Below are positions 50,563 to 57,982 of a DNA stretch of 64,000 bases, piece after piece. The first letter of the stretch is position 1, and each line of letters starts with the position of its first letter. A program made the position numbers and the translations under genes. The DNA comes from Diacronema lutheri (Eukaryota > Haptophyta > Pavlovophyceae > Pavlovales > Pavlovaceae), in assembly GCA_019448385.1 (NCBI GenBank), contig JAGTXO010000011.1, positions 710,001 to 774,000 on the forward strand. The letters run 5' to 3'. A model generated the notes under the pieces. The model was not told the origin of the DNA. It made no database searches and worked only from the letters and a program-made list of their open reading frames with translations.

Positions 50563-52080
50563 ATGACGAGGGAGGGATTGAGCGAGCTGCAGCTCGAGGC
50601 GAGTGTGAGTCGGCCGTCGAGCGCCTCAACCGCTCGCTCCGAAGTGCCCTGCAACGCTGAGGTGGCGCAGTCGCCGCTGCGCGGCGGTGGCGGCCACAGC
50701 GCGCGCTCGCCGCGGCCGTCGACGCCAGTTCGGCTGACGCTCGAGGAGGCGCTGCGCACGAGCCGGCAGGTGAGCATCAGCCTGCGCGAGGGTGAGCTCG
50801 ACACGGCCGGTCTGGCCGACGACGCCCCTTTCGACGCTCCCGCGGGCGCGTGCGGCTCGCCGATGGGGCAGCAGTCGCCGTCGCCCACGCGCGTCGTCGC
50901 CGACTGCGGCGTCACGTCGGAGATCGGCGCGCGGCCAGAGAATCAGGACGGCTGGATTCTGCGCGACCAGTTTGGCGGGCACGCCGGCGCCGTCTTCGCC
51001 GCCGTGCTCGACGGCCACGGCCCCGACGGCCGGCGCGTCTCGCAGTTCGTACAGGCGGAGCTACCGCTGCGGCTGAGCGCGCAGCCAGGGCTTACGACCG
51101 ACCCTCCCGAGGCGCTGCGTCGCGCGTTCGCGGAGACGCAGGCGGCGCTGCTCGCACCCGAGTCGGGGCTGCAGACCGAGTGCAGCGGCGCCACCGCCAC
51201 GTGCGTCCTCGTCGTCCGGCGCAAACTCCACGTGGCCAAGTGCGCGCGCCACACGCGATGCGCGACCCGACACGCGACATGCGACGCGCGGCGACCCCGA
51301 CCGCGTCCGTTCCCTCGCGCGCGCGCGCGAGGCGGCTCCTCACGTCGCCTTCGGCGCGCTGCGCGCCGTATCCGACGGGCGCCACCGCGGGCGCCTCCGC
51401 TCCGCACCGCCGTCCGCAGCCTCGGCGACTCGCGAACGGTCCTTGGATTTCGGCGCGCGCGGCCGCCCGGCGCGGCCGGCGCGGGCGGAGGTGCGGGCGC
51501 TCCTGCAGGCGCAGAGCCGGCTGTCGCGACGGGCGCGAGCGAAACGGCACTGGCTGCACGCCGACTGACAACGGACCACAAGCCGGACGAGCCCGCTGAG
51601 CGCGCGCGCATTGAGGCGAGCGGCGGGCGCGTGTGCCCCTTCATGCTGCGCGGCAAGCCGCTCGGGCCCCCGCGCGTGTGGTCGGCGGCGGACTGGACGC
51701 CGGGGCTGGCGGTCGCGCGCTCGTTTGGCGACTCCGCCCTGGCGGCGCTCGGCGTGAGCGCGGTGCCGGAGATTGGCACGTACGAGCTGGACAGCAGCTT
51801 CGACCATGTTGTCCTTGCTTCGGACGGCGTCTGGGACGGCATCACGGACGACGAGGCGGTGGCCATCGTTGCGCAGAGCGCGCGCGCGGGCTCGCCGCAG
51901 GCCGCGTCGGCGGAGCTCTGCCGCAGGGCGCTCGTGGCGCTGCATTCGGCGACGCGCAAGGACAACGTGACGGCGCTTGTCGTGACGTTTGCGTCAGGTA
52001 CTAGCCGGCGCGCGGCGGCTGCGCGCAGCGCGCTCAGTCTGATGGACACGCCTGCGGCCGTGGATGCGGCGAGAGCTTGA
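50563..52080 (+). CDS. PP2C-type protein phosphatase
   Basis: Two exons, 50563-51239 and 51420-52080, encode 445 aa. PP2C enzymes are Mg/Mn-dependent Ser/Thr phosphatases. Motifs in order: RPENQDGW (residues of about 125-130), VLDGHGPDG (148-156), SGATAT, then across the 180-bp intron HVAN|LGDSRTVL (the GDSR motif restored only by splicing), TTDHKPDEPAERARIEASGG, LAVARSFGDSAL, ASDGVWDGITDDEA and RKDNVTALVVTF with the final metal-binding Asp. All metal ligands are present, so it should be active. The N-terminal 110 residues are Ser/Pro-rich and unstructured. Its 5' flank is the right end of the mobile element. Confidence 0.93.
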   Translation: MTREGLSELQLEASVSRPSSASTARSEVPCNAEVAQSPLRGGGGHSARSPRPSTPVRLTLEEALRTSRQVSISLREGELDTAGLADDAPFDAPAGACGSPMGQQSPSPTRVVADCGVTSEIGARPENQDGWILRDQFGGHAGAVFAAVLDGHGPDGRRVSQFVQAELPLRLSAQPGLTTDPPEALRRAFAETQAALLAPESGLQTECSGATATCVLVVRRKLHVAKCARHTRCATRHATCDARRPRPRPFPRARARGGSSRRLRRAARRIRRAPPRAPPLRTAVRSLGDSRTVLGFRRARPPGAAGAGGGAGAPAGAEPAVATGASETALAARRLTTDHKPDEPAERARIEASGGRVCPFMLRGKPLGPPRVWSAADWTPGLAVARSFGDSALAALGVSAVPEIGTYELDSSFDHVVLASDGVWDGITDDEAVAIVAQSARAGSPQAASAELCRRALVALHSATRKDNVTALVVTFASGTSRRAAAARSALSLMDTPAAVDAARA

Positions 52081-52142
52081 CTCGGCCTTGATCAACTCTG
52101 CTGGTCTTGTTTCAAATTCGGCCGGCCGCCACGGCGCGAACG

Positions 52143-54593
52143 ATGCCCGCGGCGGCGAGACTCGTGGCCGCGTTTTGTTGTGGCAAGGTGGTGGGGAGAT
52201 ACCCAGGCGAGGTGCTCCGCTGGCTGGACGCGGAGCGCGTGCCCTGGCGGCCGGTCGACCTTCCGCGCGCGTCGGCGCCGATCGTCCTGCTCGACGGCGC
52301 CGCCGCGCCTGGCCTCGCGCTCCACCTGCTCGCCTCGCCGCGCGCGGCCGAGGACGTCGCGCCGCCGTGGGAGAACGCGAGGCTCACGGACGCGTGCGCG
52401 CAGCTTGCTCCGCACGTAACGCTCGTCCACCTGCACGAGGACGTGTGGCGTTCGCGCGGGGACATTGCGCGCGCGCGGCTGCTTGCGCGGCTCGGACGCA
52501 CGCGCTCGCGCCTCTTCGCGCGCAAGACGATCGCGCGGCGCATCGACGCGGCGACGTGCGTGCCCTTTCTCGAGGCGAATCACCTGTGGGGAGCGACGCG
52601 CGCCAAGTACTATTACGGCCTCTTTGATGCTGCGGGCACGCTCGTCGCAGCCGCCTCGTTCTCGCACGCGCGCACCGTACTGCGCGATGGCATGCCGCAC
52701 CGCTCCCACGAGCTCCTCCGCACGTGCACCGCGCGCGACGGGGCGGTCGTCGGCGCGATCTCAAAGCTCGTCGGCGCATTCTGCCGCGCGCACGGCGCCG
52801 ACGATATCGTCACCGTCATCGACCGCGACTGGGGCATCGGCGTCGGCTGGCGCTCCATCGGCTTTGAAACCGTCCAGACGATGCCGCCCCTTACAATGCT
52901 CGTCGGCAGCGACGGGCTGCGCAGGCACCTCATCGGCGCTGGACTCGCGCACACGCCGTTAGAGGATGAGTCGCCATCGTGCGGCGAACTTGGCGACGCG
53001 ATCGACCGGCCGGCTACGGTGGGCAGCAGCCGCGCGCGAGCGGACGGTTGCACGCCGGGCGCGGGCGCGGGCGAGCATGGCGTCGGCGCGGCGCGCGTGC
53101 CCTCGTCGCGTCTCTTGCGCGCGGCATTGCCTGCCGAGCTGATGCGCGCGCTCGACACGCACGCAGCCGACGAGCCGCTTGCCCTGCTCGCCGCGCACGG
53201 CTACCTCGCCGTGCACGACGCAGGCGTTGAGCGCCTCGTATTTCTCGTTGACTCGACGCGCCGCCAACAGCCCGGTGACACGCATCGCCTGTGGACGCGC
53301 TCCATCCCGAGCTATGCACCCACGCACTACTCGTCGAACCAGGGCGTGCATGGCCTCCTGCGCCGTGTCGCGGCCGCCGGAGCGCACGCGCACGCCGAGA
53401 GCGCGCATGCCTACGACGTGGCGCGCGCTCTCGCGTCCGGCGCGTCCGGCACGTCCGGCACGCTCGCCGCGCTCGCGTCCGGCGCGCTGCCGCCGGCCGA
53501 CCCTGATGACGTGCGCGGCGCGCTCGACTCTTGGCGAGCGGCAGCGCGCGCCAGCGCGCCGGACGCAACTGTTTCTCCGTACATCTTCTCCGCGCCGTCC
53601 GCGGTGGCTGACGGCGGCGACTCAACGGTCGAAGTGCACGCACGGCCGGACGGGTGGCGAACGTTACGCGTGGTCACTGGCAAGCGGCACGTGCTGCAGG
53701 CCGTCGTTCGGCTCGACGCGCACGGCGCGCCCGTGCCAGGCGCCATCGCTTCTGAGTACGTGCGCACGATGGCTGCCCTCGCGCTCGCCGCGCTAGAGGC
53801 GGCCGCGCCGCGCGCGCGCGCCGGCGCGCGCGCCCCCGACGCGCACGGTGGCGGAGCGCCGGCGCTTCGATGCCTTCACCTTGGCCTGGGCGGGGGCGTG
53901 CTGGCGCGGCTTTTCGCCACGCTCGAGCCGCGCAGCGCGCACGTGGCCGTCGAGATCGACCGCACCATCGTCGCCGCGCTGGCGGAGCTTGGTGGGCTCG
54001 CGCTCCACGCGCACGCCGACAATGCGGCTGGCGAATGCGCGGCCGATGCGTGCGCGAGCGACGACGTGGCGAGCCGGCAGATCGAGGCGCACGTCGCCGA
54101 CGCGGCGAGCTGGGTCGCGCAGCTCGCCGCGACGCCGCACGCGAGCCGCGCGCGCTTCGACGCCGTGTTCGTCGACTGCTTTGACAACAGCAACGACTGT
54201 CCGCCATCATTGCTCACGCGCGCGTTCGCTGAGCACGTGCGCGCCATATTGACGCCGCGCGGTGTGGTGGTACACAATTTGCACTTTGGCGCAAGCAGGC
54301 ACCAGCCGACGGTCGCGGCGGCCGAGGCCGCGTATGCGCACGTCTTTGGCAGCGCCGTGCGCGTGGACTCGCTCGACAGCAAGCCGTGGGCGGGCAACAC
54401 GCTCATCCTCGGGACGCGGCACGGGCACGTGGCCGCATCCGCTGGTGCGCTCGAGGCAAGCGCGGCGTTGGCGCAGGGCCGTCTCGAGGCGGCGCGCGCG
54501 TCGGACGCGCAGTGCATCTACGACCTGCGTGCGCGCGTGCGCGGCGCTCGTCTTCTCAGGCCACAGGCCCGGCAGGGCGTCCACTTGTTGTAG
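52143..54593 (+). CDS. Fusion of a phage-type endonuclease-associated domain with a spermidine-synthase-like domain
   Basis: A single-exon gene of 816 aa. Residues of about 95-255 match a domain known mainly from tailed phages and giant viruses, usually next to homing or Vsr-like endonucleases. Signatures are LHEDVWRSRGDIARARLL, RLFARKTIARRI, PFLEANHLWGATRAKYYYGL, SHELLRTC, VVGAISKLVGAFCRAHGADD and VIDRDWGIGVGWRSIGFE. Residues of about 280-560 are an unfamiliar middle region. Residues of about 575-755 form a Rossmann methyltransferase fold of spermidine-synthase type (LHLGLGGGVLARLFATLEPR, HVAVEIDRTIVAALAELGG, FDAVFVDCFDNSNDCPPSLL). The polyamine-site residues are not all recognisable, so a general SAM-dependent or aminopropyl-transfer role is open. 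The first domain was probably acquired from a virus. Confidence 0.75.
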   Translation: MPAAARLVAAFCCGKVVGRYPGEVLRWLDAERVPWRPVDLPRASAPIVLLDGAAAPGLALHLLASPRAAEDVAPPWENARLTDACAQLAPHVTLVHLHEDVWRSRGDIARARLLARLGRTRSRLFARKTIARRIDAATCVPFLEANHLWGATRAKYYYGLFDAAGTLVAAASFSHARTVLRDGMPHRSHELLRTCTARDGAVVGAISKLVGAFCRAHGADDIVTVIDRDWGIGVGWRSIGFETVQTMPPLTMLVGSDGLRRHLIGAGLAHTPLEDESPSCGELGDAIDRPATVGSSRARADGCTPGAGAGEHGVGAARVPSSRLLRAALPAELMRALDTHAADEPLALLAAHGYLAVHDAGVERLVFLVDSTRRQQPGDTHRLWTRSIPSYAPTHYSSNQGVHGLLRRVAAAGAHAHAESAHAYDVARALASGASGTSGTLAALASGALPPADPDDVRGALDSWRAAARASAPDATVSPYIFSAPSAVADGGDSTVEVHARPDGWRTLRVVTGKRHVLQAVVRLDAHGAPVPGAIASEYVRTMAALALAALEAAAPRARAGARAPDAHGGGAPALRCLHLGLGGGVLARLFATLEPRSAHVAVEIDRTIVAALAELGGLALHAHADNAAGECAADACASDDVASRQIEAHVADAASWVAQLAATPHASRARFDAVFVDCFDNSNDCPPSLLTRAFAEHVRAILTPRGVVVHNLHFGASRHQPTVAAAEAAYAHVFGSAVRVDSLDSKPWAGNTLILGTRHGHVAASAGALEASAALAQGRLEAARASDAQCIYDLRARVRGARLLRPQARQGVHLL

Positions 54594-54690: not shown

Positions 54691-55730
54691 TCACGCCACG
54701 GCCACGGACGCTCGCTTGGCGTGCAGTGCTTGCGCGAGTTTGTCAATCACCTCGCACGCGGCGATCGGAATCCGCGTGCCCGGTCCGAAAATGGCCGCAA
54801 CGCCCGCCTTGCGCAGGACCTCATAGTCCGCCTCGGGAATGACGCCGCCCGCGACGACCATCGTCCCGTCCGCGTCCTCCGCGCGCAGCGCGTCGATCAG
54901 CGCGGGCACGAGCGTGCGGTGCGCGGCCGCCTGCGACGAGACGCCGACGACGTGCACGTCCGCGTCGACCGCCTGGCGAGCCACCTCCTCGGGCGTCGAG
55001 AAGAGCGGACCAACGTCCACGTCGAAGCCGAGGTCGGCGAACGCGGTCGCGATCACTCGCGCGCCGCGGTCGTGGCCGTCCTGCCCCATCTTCGCGACAA
55101 GGATGCGCGGGCGGCGGCCAAAGGCGGCGGCAAATTCTGCGGCCTTCGCGCGCGTTCGGCTGATCTGTGCGTCCCCGTCGGTGTCGCACGCGCCCTCCGC
55201 TGCGGCGCCGCCGCCGTGCCCATCCGCGCCGCCGCCGGCGTGGGCCGCCTGTGCGACCGCAGACCATTCCGCAAGGTAGATGCCGGACTGCAGCGAAACG
55301 GCGGGCGAGTAACGGCCCCACGCGGACTCGAGCGCCGTGGAAATCTCGCCCACGGTCGCGTCGGCGCGTGCCGCGTCGAGCGCGAGCGCGAGCAGGTTGC
55401 CGCCTTCGGAGCTGGCGGGCGGCGGCGGCGTGCCCGGCGTCCACGCCGGCGGCTCCGTACCCGCCGCGGCGCGCAGCGCCTCGAGCGCGGCCGCCACCTT
55501 GGAGCCGTCACGCCGCGCGCGCACGCGCTCGAGGCGCGCGACCTGTTGCGTGCGCACCTGCGTCGATGCGCGCGCGAACGGGGGGCGGACGGACGGCGCG
55601 GACGGCGGTGAGCGGGCGCTGGCGCGCGGCGGCGGCGGCGGCTCGCACGAGCGGCACGGCCAAGCGGCGGGGGGCACGTGCCCAATTGTGTTTTGGGTTT
55701 TTTGGTATTTTGGGGGGGTTTGGGGATTTT

Positions 55731-55763
<33 letters not shown>

Positions 55764-57982
55764 TCACGCGCCAGGCGGGCGCGGGCGGGTAGGCAGCCGC
55801 GCAACGCCATTGGGCGGCGAGCGTGGAGGACGCACGGGCCGGCGCGGTGTGGCGAGCGCGCGCGTTCGCGCACGGAGGGCAGGCGCGCGCCTGTTCATTA
55901 TCAATGAGCCGCGCAGGCGCAGCGTTTGAGCCGGCGCCCCCACGCGCGTCCACAAATTTGTTGACGCCGACAATCACGTCCGCAGCCGCGTCGATGCGTG
56001 CCTGCTTGCGCGCGGCGCACGCCTCGATCCGCGCCTTGGGCGTGCCCGCGCCCACCGCCTTGGCCATCCCGCCCGCGCGGTCGACCTCGACGATCACGGC
56101 GGCCGCCGCGTCCGCGAGCTGCGCGGTCAGCGCCTCAACGGCATACGAGCCGCCAAAGGGATCGGCAACGGTTGGGATGCCCGTCTCCTGCGACGGCCAG
56201 CGGTCGCGCGGGCGCGGGCGCGCGAAGACGCCGTCAGCGCGACGATCGCACGCGACGAGAGCCACACGCCGCAAGACTGCAGCAAGTGCGACTGCAAGAG
56301 CTGCTGCGACGATTGCACGCGCGTGCGGGGACAGGTGGGACAGGTGGGACAGGTGGTGCGGAGGGAGGCGGCGGGGGTGGAGGGGGTGGAGTGGACCAAG
56401 GACCAAGGGGGAGGGGGGAGGGGAAGGGGGTGGAGTGGACCAAGGACCAAGGGGGAGGGGGGAGGGGAAGGGGGTGGAGTGGACCAAGGACCAAGGGGGA
56501 GGGGGGAGGGGAAGGGGGTGGAGGGGGTGGAGTGGGGGTGGAGTGGACCAAGGACCAAGGGGGAGGGGGGAGGGGAAGGGGGTGGAGGGGGTGGAGTGGA
56601 CCAAGGACCAAGGGAGAGGGGGCGGGGGGCGGCGGAGGGCAAAGGGGGCGGAGGGGGGCGGAGGGGGGGGGGGGGGGGGGGGGGGCACGCGCAAGCTCAC
56701 GTGCTGTAGGATCAGCTGCGTGTTGCGCGCGATCTTTGCAGAGAGCTCGGTGGGCAGGCCGACCGCCTCGTCATACGAGTTGGTGTGCAGCGACTGCGTG
56801 CCGCCGAGCACCGCCGCGAGCGCCTCGACTGTGGTGCGGACGACATTGTTGAGTGGGTCCTTCTCAGTGAGCGACCATCCCGATGTCTGGCAGTGTGTGC
56901 GGAGCAGGAGCGATTTGGGGTTGGACGGCTTGAACTCGGCCTGCACGAGCTCCGCCCAGAGCTTGCGCGCCGCGCGCAGCTTGGCCACCTCCGTCAAAAA
57001 GTCCATCCCAATGCCGAAGAAGAAGGAGAGGCGGGGCGCGACCGCGTCGACGGGCACGCCGCGTGACGTGGCCGCGCGCAGGTACTCGAGGCCGTCGGCG
57101 AGGGTGTACGCGAGCTCGGTGATGGCGTCCGCGCCCGCCTCCTGCATGTGGTAGCCGGACACCGAGATCGAGTTGAAGCGCGGCATGTGCGCGGCCGTGT
57201 ACGCCATCACGTCGGCGACGATTCGCATTGACGGAAGCGGCGGGTAAATGAATGTGTTGCGCACCATGAACTCCTTGAGGATGTCGTTCTGCACCGTACC
57301 GCTCAGCTGCGCGGCGGGCACGCCGTGCCGCTCGGCCGCCGCGATGAACATGGCCATGACGGGCAGCACCGCGCCGTTCATCGTCATCGAGACCGAGACC
57401 GAATCGAGCGGGATCTGGTCAAACAGAATCTCCATGTCCTCGGTGCAATCGATTGCGACGCCAGCCATGCCCACGTCGCCGCGCACGCGCTCGTGATCCG
57501 AGTCGTAGCCGCGGTGCGTCGCCAAATCGAAGGCCACCGACAGACCGGTCTGCCCCGCCGCCAAATTGGCGCGGTAGAAGGCGTTGGACTCCTCAGCCGT
57601 CGAGAAGCCGGCATACTGGCGGATCGTCCACGGCCGGTTGGAGTACATGCTCGCGTGCGGGCCGCGCGTGTACGGAAACTCGCCGGGAAGCTGCGCCGGC
57701 GGCGTGCGGAGCGCTGCCACGTCGTCCGCCGTGTAAATCGGCTTGCTGCGCGCGCGCGCGCGCGCCGGGAGCAGCGCGCGTGAGCGCCGGCGGCCGCGCA
57801 CGCGCGCGCGCGCGCGCGCGCTTGCGCCGAGGCGCGCACATGGCCACGCCCTCGGCAAGTGGGCGCGCCAGCTGCTTGAGCGGGTCGTCCTTCTTCGTCT
57901 CCTTTTTCGCCAGCGCTACCCACCTCGACACCGTCGAGCTCGCGCGCGCGCCGCGCCTGATGGCGGCACGCATCGCTCTCAT
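54691..57982 (-). CDS. MUT: Methylmalonyl-CoA mutase, mitochondrial
   Basis: Four exons, 57982-57840, 57745-56701, 56187-55891 and 55557-54691, encode 783 aa. The adenosylcobalamin enzyme interconverts methylmalonyl-CoA and succinyl-CoA in propionate metabolism. The N-terminus ([20 protein letters not shown]) is a mitochondrial presequence. Junction 1 gives [13 protein letters not shown], the family's start of the barrel. The barrel has [33 protein letters not shown] and [13 protein letters not shown]; junction 2 gives [19 protein letters not shown]. Junction 3 gives [16 protein letters not shown] and uses a GC donor. The B12 domain has [13 protein letters not shown] with the cobalt-ligating His. 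Fused alpha-type layout and length match eukaryotic MUT. The enzyme implies a cobalamin requirement. Head-to-head with a methyltransferase gene, 50 bp between ATGs. Confidence 0.95.
56381..56690. repeat. Minisatellite and G23 tract in mutase intron 2
   Basis: About five copies of a 45-bp purine-rich unit (GTGGAGTGGACCAAGGACCA...) at 56381-56625, followed by G-rich sequence and a run of about 23 G ending near 56685. The run lies close to the intron 5' end; on the transcript the whole block is pyrimidine. Confidence 0.8.

Follow-up and report, generated by a model that had tools for sequence, protein, structure and literature searches.

Mom of phage Mu (PF25680, PDB 8bv8) is a free-standing protein with a GNAT fold, and Hef-like phage homing endonucleases (PHROG 3339) carry a nuclease part, a GNAT domain and a conserved tail in that order. 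METTL13, which methylates eEF1A, has another methyltransferase ahead of its C-terminal domain (PDB 5wcj). Here we report a nuclear gene of the haptophyte alga Diacronema lutheri that shares parts with all three. It is a single frame of 816 codons (2451 bases), running without internal stops from the ATG at 52143 to the TAG at 54593 on the plus strand of the window, by which we mean the whole 64,000-nucleotide stretch analysed (contig JAGTXO010000011.1, positions 710,001 to 774,000, forward strand). A three-part architecture is well supported by sequence profiles and structure models, the gene being predicted to encode a dead restriction-endonuclease-like remnant, a Mom-type GNAT acyltransferase domain and a SpeE/METTL13-type S-adenosylmethionine (SAM)-dependent methyltransferase-like domain. 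Compared with Mu Mom, the window protein has the nuclease remnant in front and the methyltransferase-like domain behind. Compared with the Hef-like endonucleases, remnant, GNAT domain and tail follow in the identical order, but the zinc-finger cysteines and the nuclease signature are missing and a C-terminal enzyme is added. Unlike METTL13, the protein carries a GNAT domain in front. The reading we favour, with a probability of roughly 0.45, is that a domesticated Mom-type acyltransferase and a SAM methyltransferase together modify nucleic acid, perhaps plastid tRNA, by a chemistry that we infer.

The GNAT domain occupies residues 93-255 (52419..52907, plus strand). A profile search with residues 93-250 matched PHROG 3339, a homing endonuclease family, at E 9.5e-26; PHROG 559 and 29804 matched less strongly. 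This bears out a preliminary description of the gene, which had linked residues 95-255 to a domain of phage endonucleases through the landmarks FLEANHLWGA, SHELLRTC, VVGAISKL and DRDWGIGVGWRSIGFE, all present in the translation. The phage similarity extends beyond that region on both sides: the motif HLHEDVW corresponds in position to the end of the nuclease in the phages, and the first half's conserved tail (RRHLIGAGL ... VHDAGVERL; residues 256-410, 52908..53372, plus strand), which has a disordered insert at about 278-319, is colinear with the phage C-terminus. Tblastn with residues 92-270 produced matches in 180 records of a phage set of 50,697, the best at E 1e-16, and IMG/VR, scanned with an alignment to which phage rows had been added, yielded at least 550 relatives among at least 599 pattern matches. 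Eighty of these loci, which lack annotation, were kept; their best frames mostly encode proteins of about 400-700 residues with the domain close to the C-terminal end, and the frames had scores down to 1.1e-44 against the algal domain profile.

Fold matches of the full-length model (predicted local distance difference test, pLDDT, 69.5; predicted template modelling score, pTM, 0.52, too weak for the mutual orientation of the halves) covered almost only the second half, and the first half was therefore modelled separately. AlphaFold2 with 38 rows gave a confident model (pLDDT 85.1, pTM 0.83), in which residues 93-255 have a predicted GNAT fold. Foldseek ranked phage Mu Mom (8bv8) first among PDB matches, so that the GNAT-like nature suggested for this domain at the outset is borne out by the predicted structure. 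A structure search of BFVD gave a best E of 7.8e-21; 18 of the 20 best rows span 361-382 alignment columns, gaps included, and those among the 20 that bear names are endonucleases. Pfam returned no match to the window protein at E <= 10, hence the gathering score of the Mom family PF25680 is not reached. The domain's phage relative L010 passes this model with 31.6 bits (cut-off 27.1), and the bacterial relative L099 scores 22 bits. Taken together, residues 93-255 are predicted to be a Mom-type GNAT acyltransferase domain.

Ahead of it, residues 19-102 (52197..52448, plus strand) end in HLHEDVW, and the first-half model shows a helix, three strands, a helix and a strand at residues 19-98, which we take to be the order of the restriction-endonuclease-like core. 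Two alignments were compared, the first of 16 algal sequences with 60 of 91 distinct viral frames having at least 100 residues ahead of the domain, the second of 45 rows each from viruses, bacteria and algae. The invariant or nearly invariant nuclease residues of the viruses (E, D, E, parts of GxYWH, YH and K) are unconserved in the algae in both alignments and in the bacterial rows of the second, and the zinc-binding cysteines, kept in the viral rows, are unconserved in the algal rows. The viral histidine of YWH falls on H61 in the first alignment and on a gap in the second; the remaining losses agree, and D100, H96 and W102 of the nuclease-region alignment are retained. Residues 19-102 are thus predicted to be a dead or degenerate restriction-endonuclease-like remnant. 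Because the signature is lost in both the algal and the bacterial forms, the sequences suggest a common nuclease-free ancestor, with independent loss as the alternative. The gene might instead be a recent phage acquisition that still works as a selfish homing-endonuclease gene, as its colinearity with Hef-like phage proteins would allow; given that the viral invariant nuclease residues are unconserved, that the algal sequences form one clade, and that the gene is fused and conserved with one strong match to the first-domain family in the source genome, we give this next to no credence. Elsewhere in that genome, a 950-amino-acid open frame contains a weak match (E 0.0017; contig C75, 337159-337440) to the nuclease part of PHROG 3339.

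An Ala-rich linker region (residues 411-477, 53373..53573, plus strand; model confidence low at 415-449 and 472-477) leads into a class I SAM-binding domain that is spermidine-synthase-like and METTL13-like (residues 478-805, 53574..54557, plus strand). Residues 577-771 matched the spermidine-synthase-like NCBIfam model PRK04457 at E 6e-10, with 38.6 bits against a curated cut-off of 304 bits, and the speE model gave the second half 12 bits against a cut-off of 249.55. The predicted structure has the spermidine synthase fold and a SAM-binding fold close to 5wcj. The second half groups close to METTL13 and an uncharacterised SpeE-like group, and the METTL13 C-terminal domain, 3gjy and the SpeE-like proteins of PRK04457 resemble it in fold and sequence profile. 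The preliminary description had proposed an intron-free join to a spermidine-synthase-type domain; the uninterrupted frame and the fold agree with this, but the GGGDG signature is not kept and the domain lies close to METTL13 and the SpeE-like group. The protein could alternatively be a polyamine enzyme in which an aminopropyltransferase is joined to a polyamine acetyltransferase, for which the fold would be suitable. However, all 19 fused sequences compared have A or G in place of the aspartate of GGGDG, presumably the signature residue of aminopropyltransferases, the second-motif aspartate (681) is D in 16 of the 19, both scores lie far under the curated cut-offs, and the source genome has two strong PF01564 matches at other loci, which makes this alternative very unlikely. 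The second half is predicted to be a SpeE/METTL13-type SAM-dependent methyltransferase-like domain.

The pairing of the two halves recurs. Protein searches, each with just under 8,000 scored candidates, returned 38, then 147 (120 listed) and then, for the second half, 20 relatives; 18 of the first 38 cover at least 86% of the query, and the window protein was aligned with 17 relatives. The collected set holds 154 proteins, counting fragments, the window protein and P0002, a copy of it, but not the phage protein P0040; the N-terminal domain is found in 135, of which 64 have both domains and 71 the first only. Fused proteins with named holders come from the diatoms Cylindrotheca closterium, Skeletonema and Mediolabrus, and the first half alone from Attheya and the model diatom Phaeodactylum tricornutum (P0087). 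One fused protein, P0003, is 58% identical to the window protein over the alignment, and another, P0061, is a complete 778-amino-acid protein from MMETSP. We take MMETSP to be a transcriptome project, so that P0061, as a transcript, attests the fusion at the RNA level in a relative. The fusion is, on these sequence comparisons, a recurrent and conserved family architecture with many members. The preliminary description had considered the pairing novel; our search of open-access literature, by titles and the starts of abstracts, found no description of the fusion, of an algal Mom-like protein or of the miaA2 pair discussed below, although an earlier mention remains possible, but the window protein is not a single oddity. 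Two variants were noticed in passing: in P0029 (563 amino acids, 36 member sequences) the first half is followed by another C-terminal region, which by eye resembles an AlkB-like oxygenase and gave no Pfam match at E <= 1, and P0018 (1223 amino acids) is a fused protein with an extra C-terminal arylamine N-acetyltransferase domain (PF00797, 7.6e-21).

The evidence for the gene itself is homology and not frame length, because long open frames arise easily at the G+C content of the window (66-80% per 2 kb); in 20 shuffled versions the longest stop-free run was 475 amino acids on average and 632 at most. Upstream of the frame lie an in-frame stop at 52089 and an alternative start, TTG, at 52107. 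A 2091-base ENA contig encodes P0002, which is 100% identical to the window protein over 81% of the query, through to the C-terminus, and this constitutes independent support at the sequence level. In G+C-rich DNA with many open frames, an assembly error or the misreading of two adjacent genes as a single one would be conceivable, the more so as a transcript of the window gene itself is not identified with certainty. Against this stand P0002 and 62 further fused proteins beyond the window protein and P0002, among them P0003 and the complete MMETSP protein P0061, and we regard such an error as exceedingly improbable. The gene is a member of a real, conserved algal enzyme family that is undescribed as far as our searches reach. 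The genome was searched as 43.49 Mb in 103 contigs; the description of the published assembly gives 43,502,671 bp, 103 contigs and 73.25% G+C (PMC8379373).

The closest non-algal sequences found are, by sequence comparison, Bacteroidota proteins and not phages. Identity to the window domain reaches 43% among 64 Bacteroidota rows, whereas none of 93 phage rows exceeds 36.6%, and the algal profile scored 64 bacterial rows at a median of 145.6 bits (best 187.4) versus 120.3 bits (best 149.0) for 106 viral rows. A scan of GTDB contigs revealed four Bacteroidota loci with a relative that is not fused to the nuclease signature. Relatives, starting genomes included, were present in 7 of 395 genomes of a draw from the phylum (alignment A4), and in 36 of 194 and 128 of 201 genomes of two orders (bacterial alignment A7). 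These free-standing relatives show the identical loss of the nuclease signature and a tail similar to that of the window protein, but the C-terminal enzyme is absent from the bacterial frames read.

The bacterial gene often has a miaA-like neighbour. We read the flanks of 64 loci, namely the four from GTDB, six from the phylum draw and the non-duplicates of the best 30 of 36 and best 30 of 128 (six duplicates dropped). A miaA-like frame, always downstream on the same strand, lies in the flank of 46 (for example L090, L097, L099 and L137-L162); in 44 it is directly next to the gene, mostly overlapping or separated by a few bases (one gap of 356 bases), and in two about 1.2 kb away. All six full-length miaA-like neighbours tested pass TIGR00174, and a seventh, cut by the locus end, fails. 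Among chosen Bacteroidota genomes, 20 of 20 with the gene have two TIGR00174 hits and 20 of 20 without it have one; the weaker hit lies near the gene in 18 of the 20 (16 adjacent, two within about 1.3 kb) and elsewhere in two (G465 and G547). Across the 201 genomes of one order, which include 24 of these 40, at least two hits occur in 127 of 128 genomes with the gene versus 1 of 73 without it (Fisher p 1e-52), counts and p being uncorrected for shared ancestry, which lessens their weight; the exceptions are G677, with the gene and one hit, and G617, without the gene and with three. The second copy, MiaA2, is a divergent paralogue that retains the P-loop and the KRQ motif. The bacterial family is thus coupled to MiaA2.

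This partner bears on a further possibility, that the enzyme, like Mu Mom, modifies adenine in DNA, here that of the plastid or the nucleus. Mom is the top-ranked solved structure, and the viral relative L010 passes its Pfam model. However, the bacterial partner miaA is a tRNA enzyme, the nuclease signature is lost, and inspection by eye of the short bacterial flanks showed no restriction gene, for which no dedicated search was made; we therefore consider DNA as the target improbable.

Phylogenetic analysis placed the algae in one clade (FastTree support 0.988, 129 rows; Shimodaira-Hasegawa-like approximate likelihood ratio test, SH-aLRT, 99 in IQ-TREE, 24 rows) and the viruses in another (SH-aLRT 100, 24 rows); in the FastTree set the row P0040, labelled EUK, is really a protein of phage KARL-1. 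The bacterial rows may form one clade (approximately unbiased test, p-AU, 0.756). With three clades and no root, the branching order is unreadable and would allow descent directly from phages as well as from miaA-linked bacteria, the p-AU of 0.0365 reported below counting against the latter grouping. A phage as direct donor is not shown, because the closest non-algal relatives are Bacteroidota proteins without the nuclease residues. The giant-virus link drawn in the preliminary description is not supported: a scan of IMG/VR with the algal alignment gave 48 pattern stretches and no relatives, and the BFVD rows at E <= 0.001, many of them nameless, include a single one with a giant-virus name, a weak match to Pithovirus (8.7e-4). 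The strong viral relatives that bear names are phage proteins, mostly endonucleases.

The favoured reading is nucleic-acid modification by acyltransferase and methyltransferase. The remnant may now serve as a nucleic-acid-binding platform; the GNAT domain would put an acyl-type group on a base amino group, that of adenine as with Mom, and the fused C-terminal domain would methylate the acylated product or a site nearby. The most likely target would be tRNA, because the unfused Bacteroidota relative accompanies a paralogue of the tRNA-A37 enzyme MiaA. A plastid tRNA is the favoured candidate substrate because many related algal proteins bear signal-peptide-like leaders: 50 of 108 Met-initiated proteins have a strongly hydrophobic 12-residue stretch in the first 60 residues (author-chosen threshold, 2.2), versus 0 of 108 internal controls. 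Leaders such as VAFSLPSA resemble, in our view, the plastid-type leaders of chromophyte algae.

Several observations weigh against this reading. The window protein's own leader scores 1.93, below the threshold. In the flanks read, mostly about 1.5 kb (181 bases in L128), 18 of the 64 bacterial loci lack miaA, and their neighbours vary. The source genome gave a single TIGR00174 hit (L163; contig C9, 1035309-1036205), 28-31% identical to the bacterial second copies, and a miaA2 partner is therefore not shown in the alga; the search found no second miaA, although introns could hide others. A clade of the algae with 25 author-chosen, nearly all miaA-linked bacterial rows received a p-AU of 0.0365, and in the quick IQ-TREE analysis the algae fall, weakly supported, on the viral side together with seven bacterial rows that lack a neighbouring miaA, so that the miaA link may not extend to the algae. 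The first half can probably work alone, since 71 of 135 relatives lack the second. Finally, the VIA comparison of the first half tied Mom with Naa10 (13.0 versus 12.8), and the fold alone therefore favours bases no more than proteins. That tie leaves room for protein modification, in which the GNAT domain would acetylate N-termini or lysine residues of proteins, with methylation of the same or another protein by the METTL13-like domain; we judge it unlikely, as Foldseek puts Mom first, the named sequence relatives are nucleic-acid enzymes and the bacterial relatives are paired with a tRNA enzyme. As a separate observation, the single algal miaA (L163) has an N-terminal hydrophobic stretch by eye and possibly encodes a plastid enzyme.

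Beyond the favoured modification of nucleic acid, a wider scheme, which we put forward as rather doubtful, is that MiaA2 and the Mom-type acyltransferase form a two-component adenine route to an undescribed tRNA hypermodification of Bacteroidota, and that chromophyte algae acquired the acyltransferase, targeted it to the plastid and, in numerous lineages, joined it to the methyltransferase. If so, the fold of a phage weapon would have been turned into a translation-tuning enzyme. The algal family ties together phage endonuclease biology, Mom-type base modification and tRNA modification, and in one order the presence of the bacterial relative and that of a second miaA coincide almost perfectly, which offers a concrete lead to an unknown modified nucleoside.

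Two neighbouring frames were identified by eye in the window. Just upstream of the fusion gene, a frame at 50563-52080 (plus strand) resembles a PP2C-type protein phosphatase, and downstream, on the minus strand, a frame at 54691-57858 resembles methylmalonyl-CoA mutase, with a long Pro-rich low-complexity interruption that may be intron sequence.
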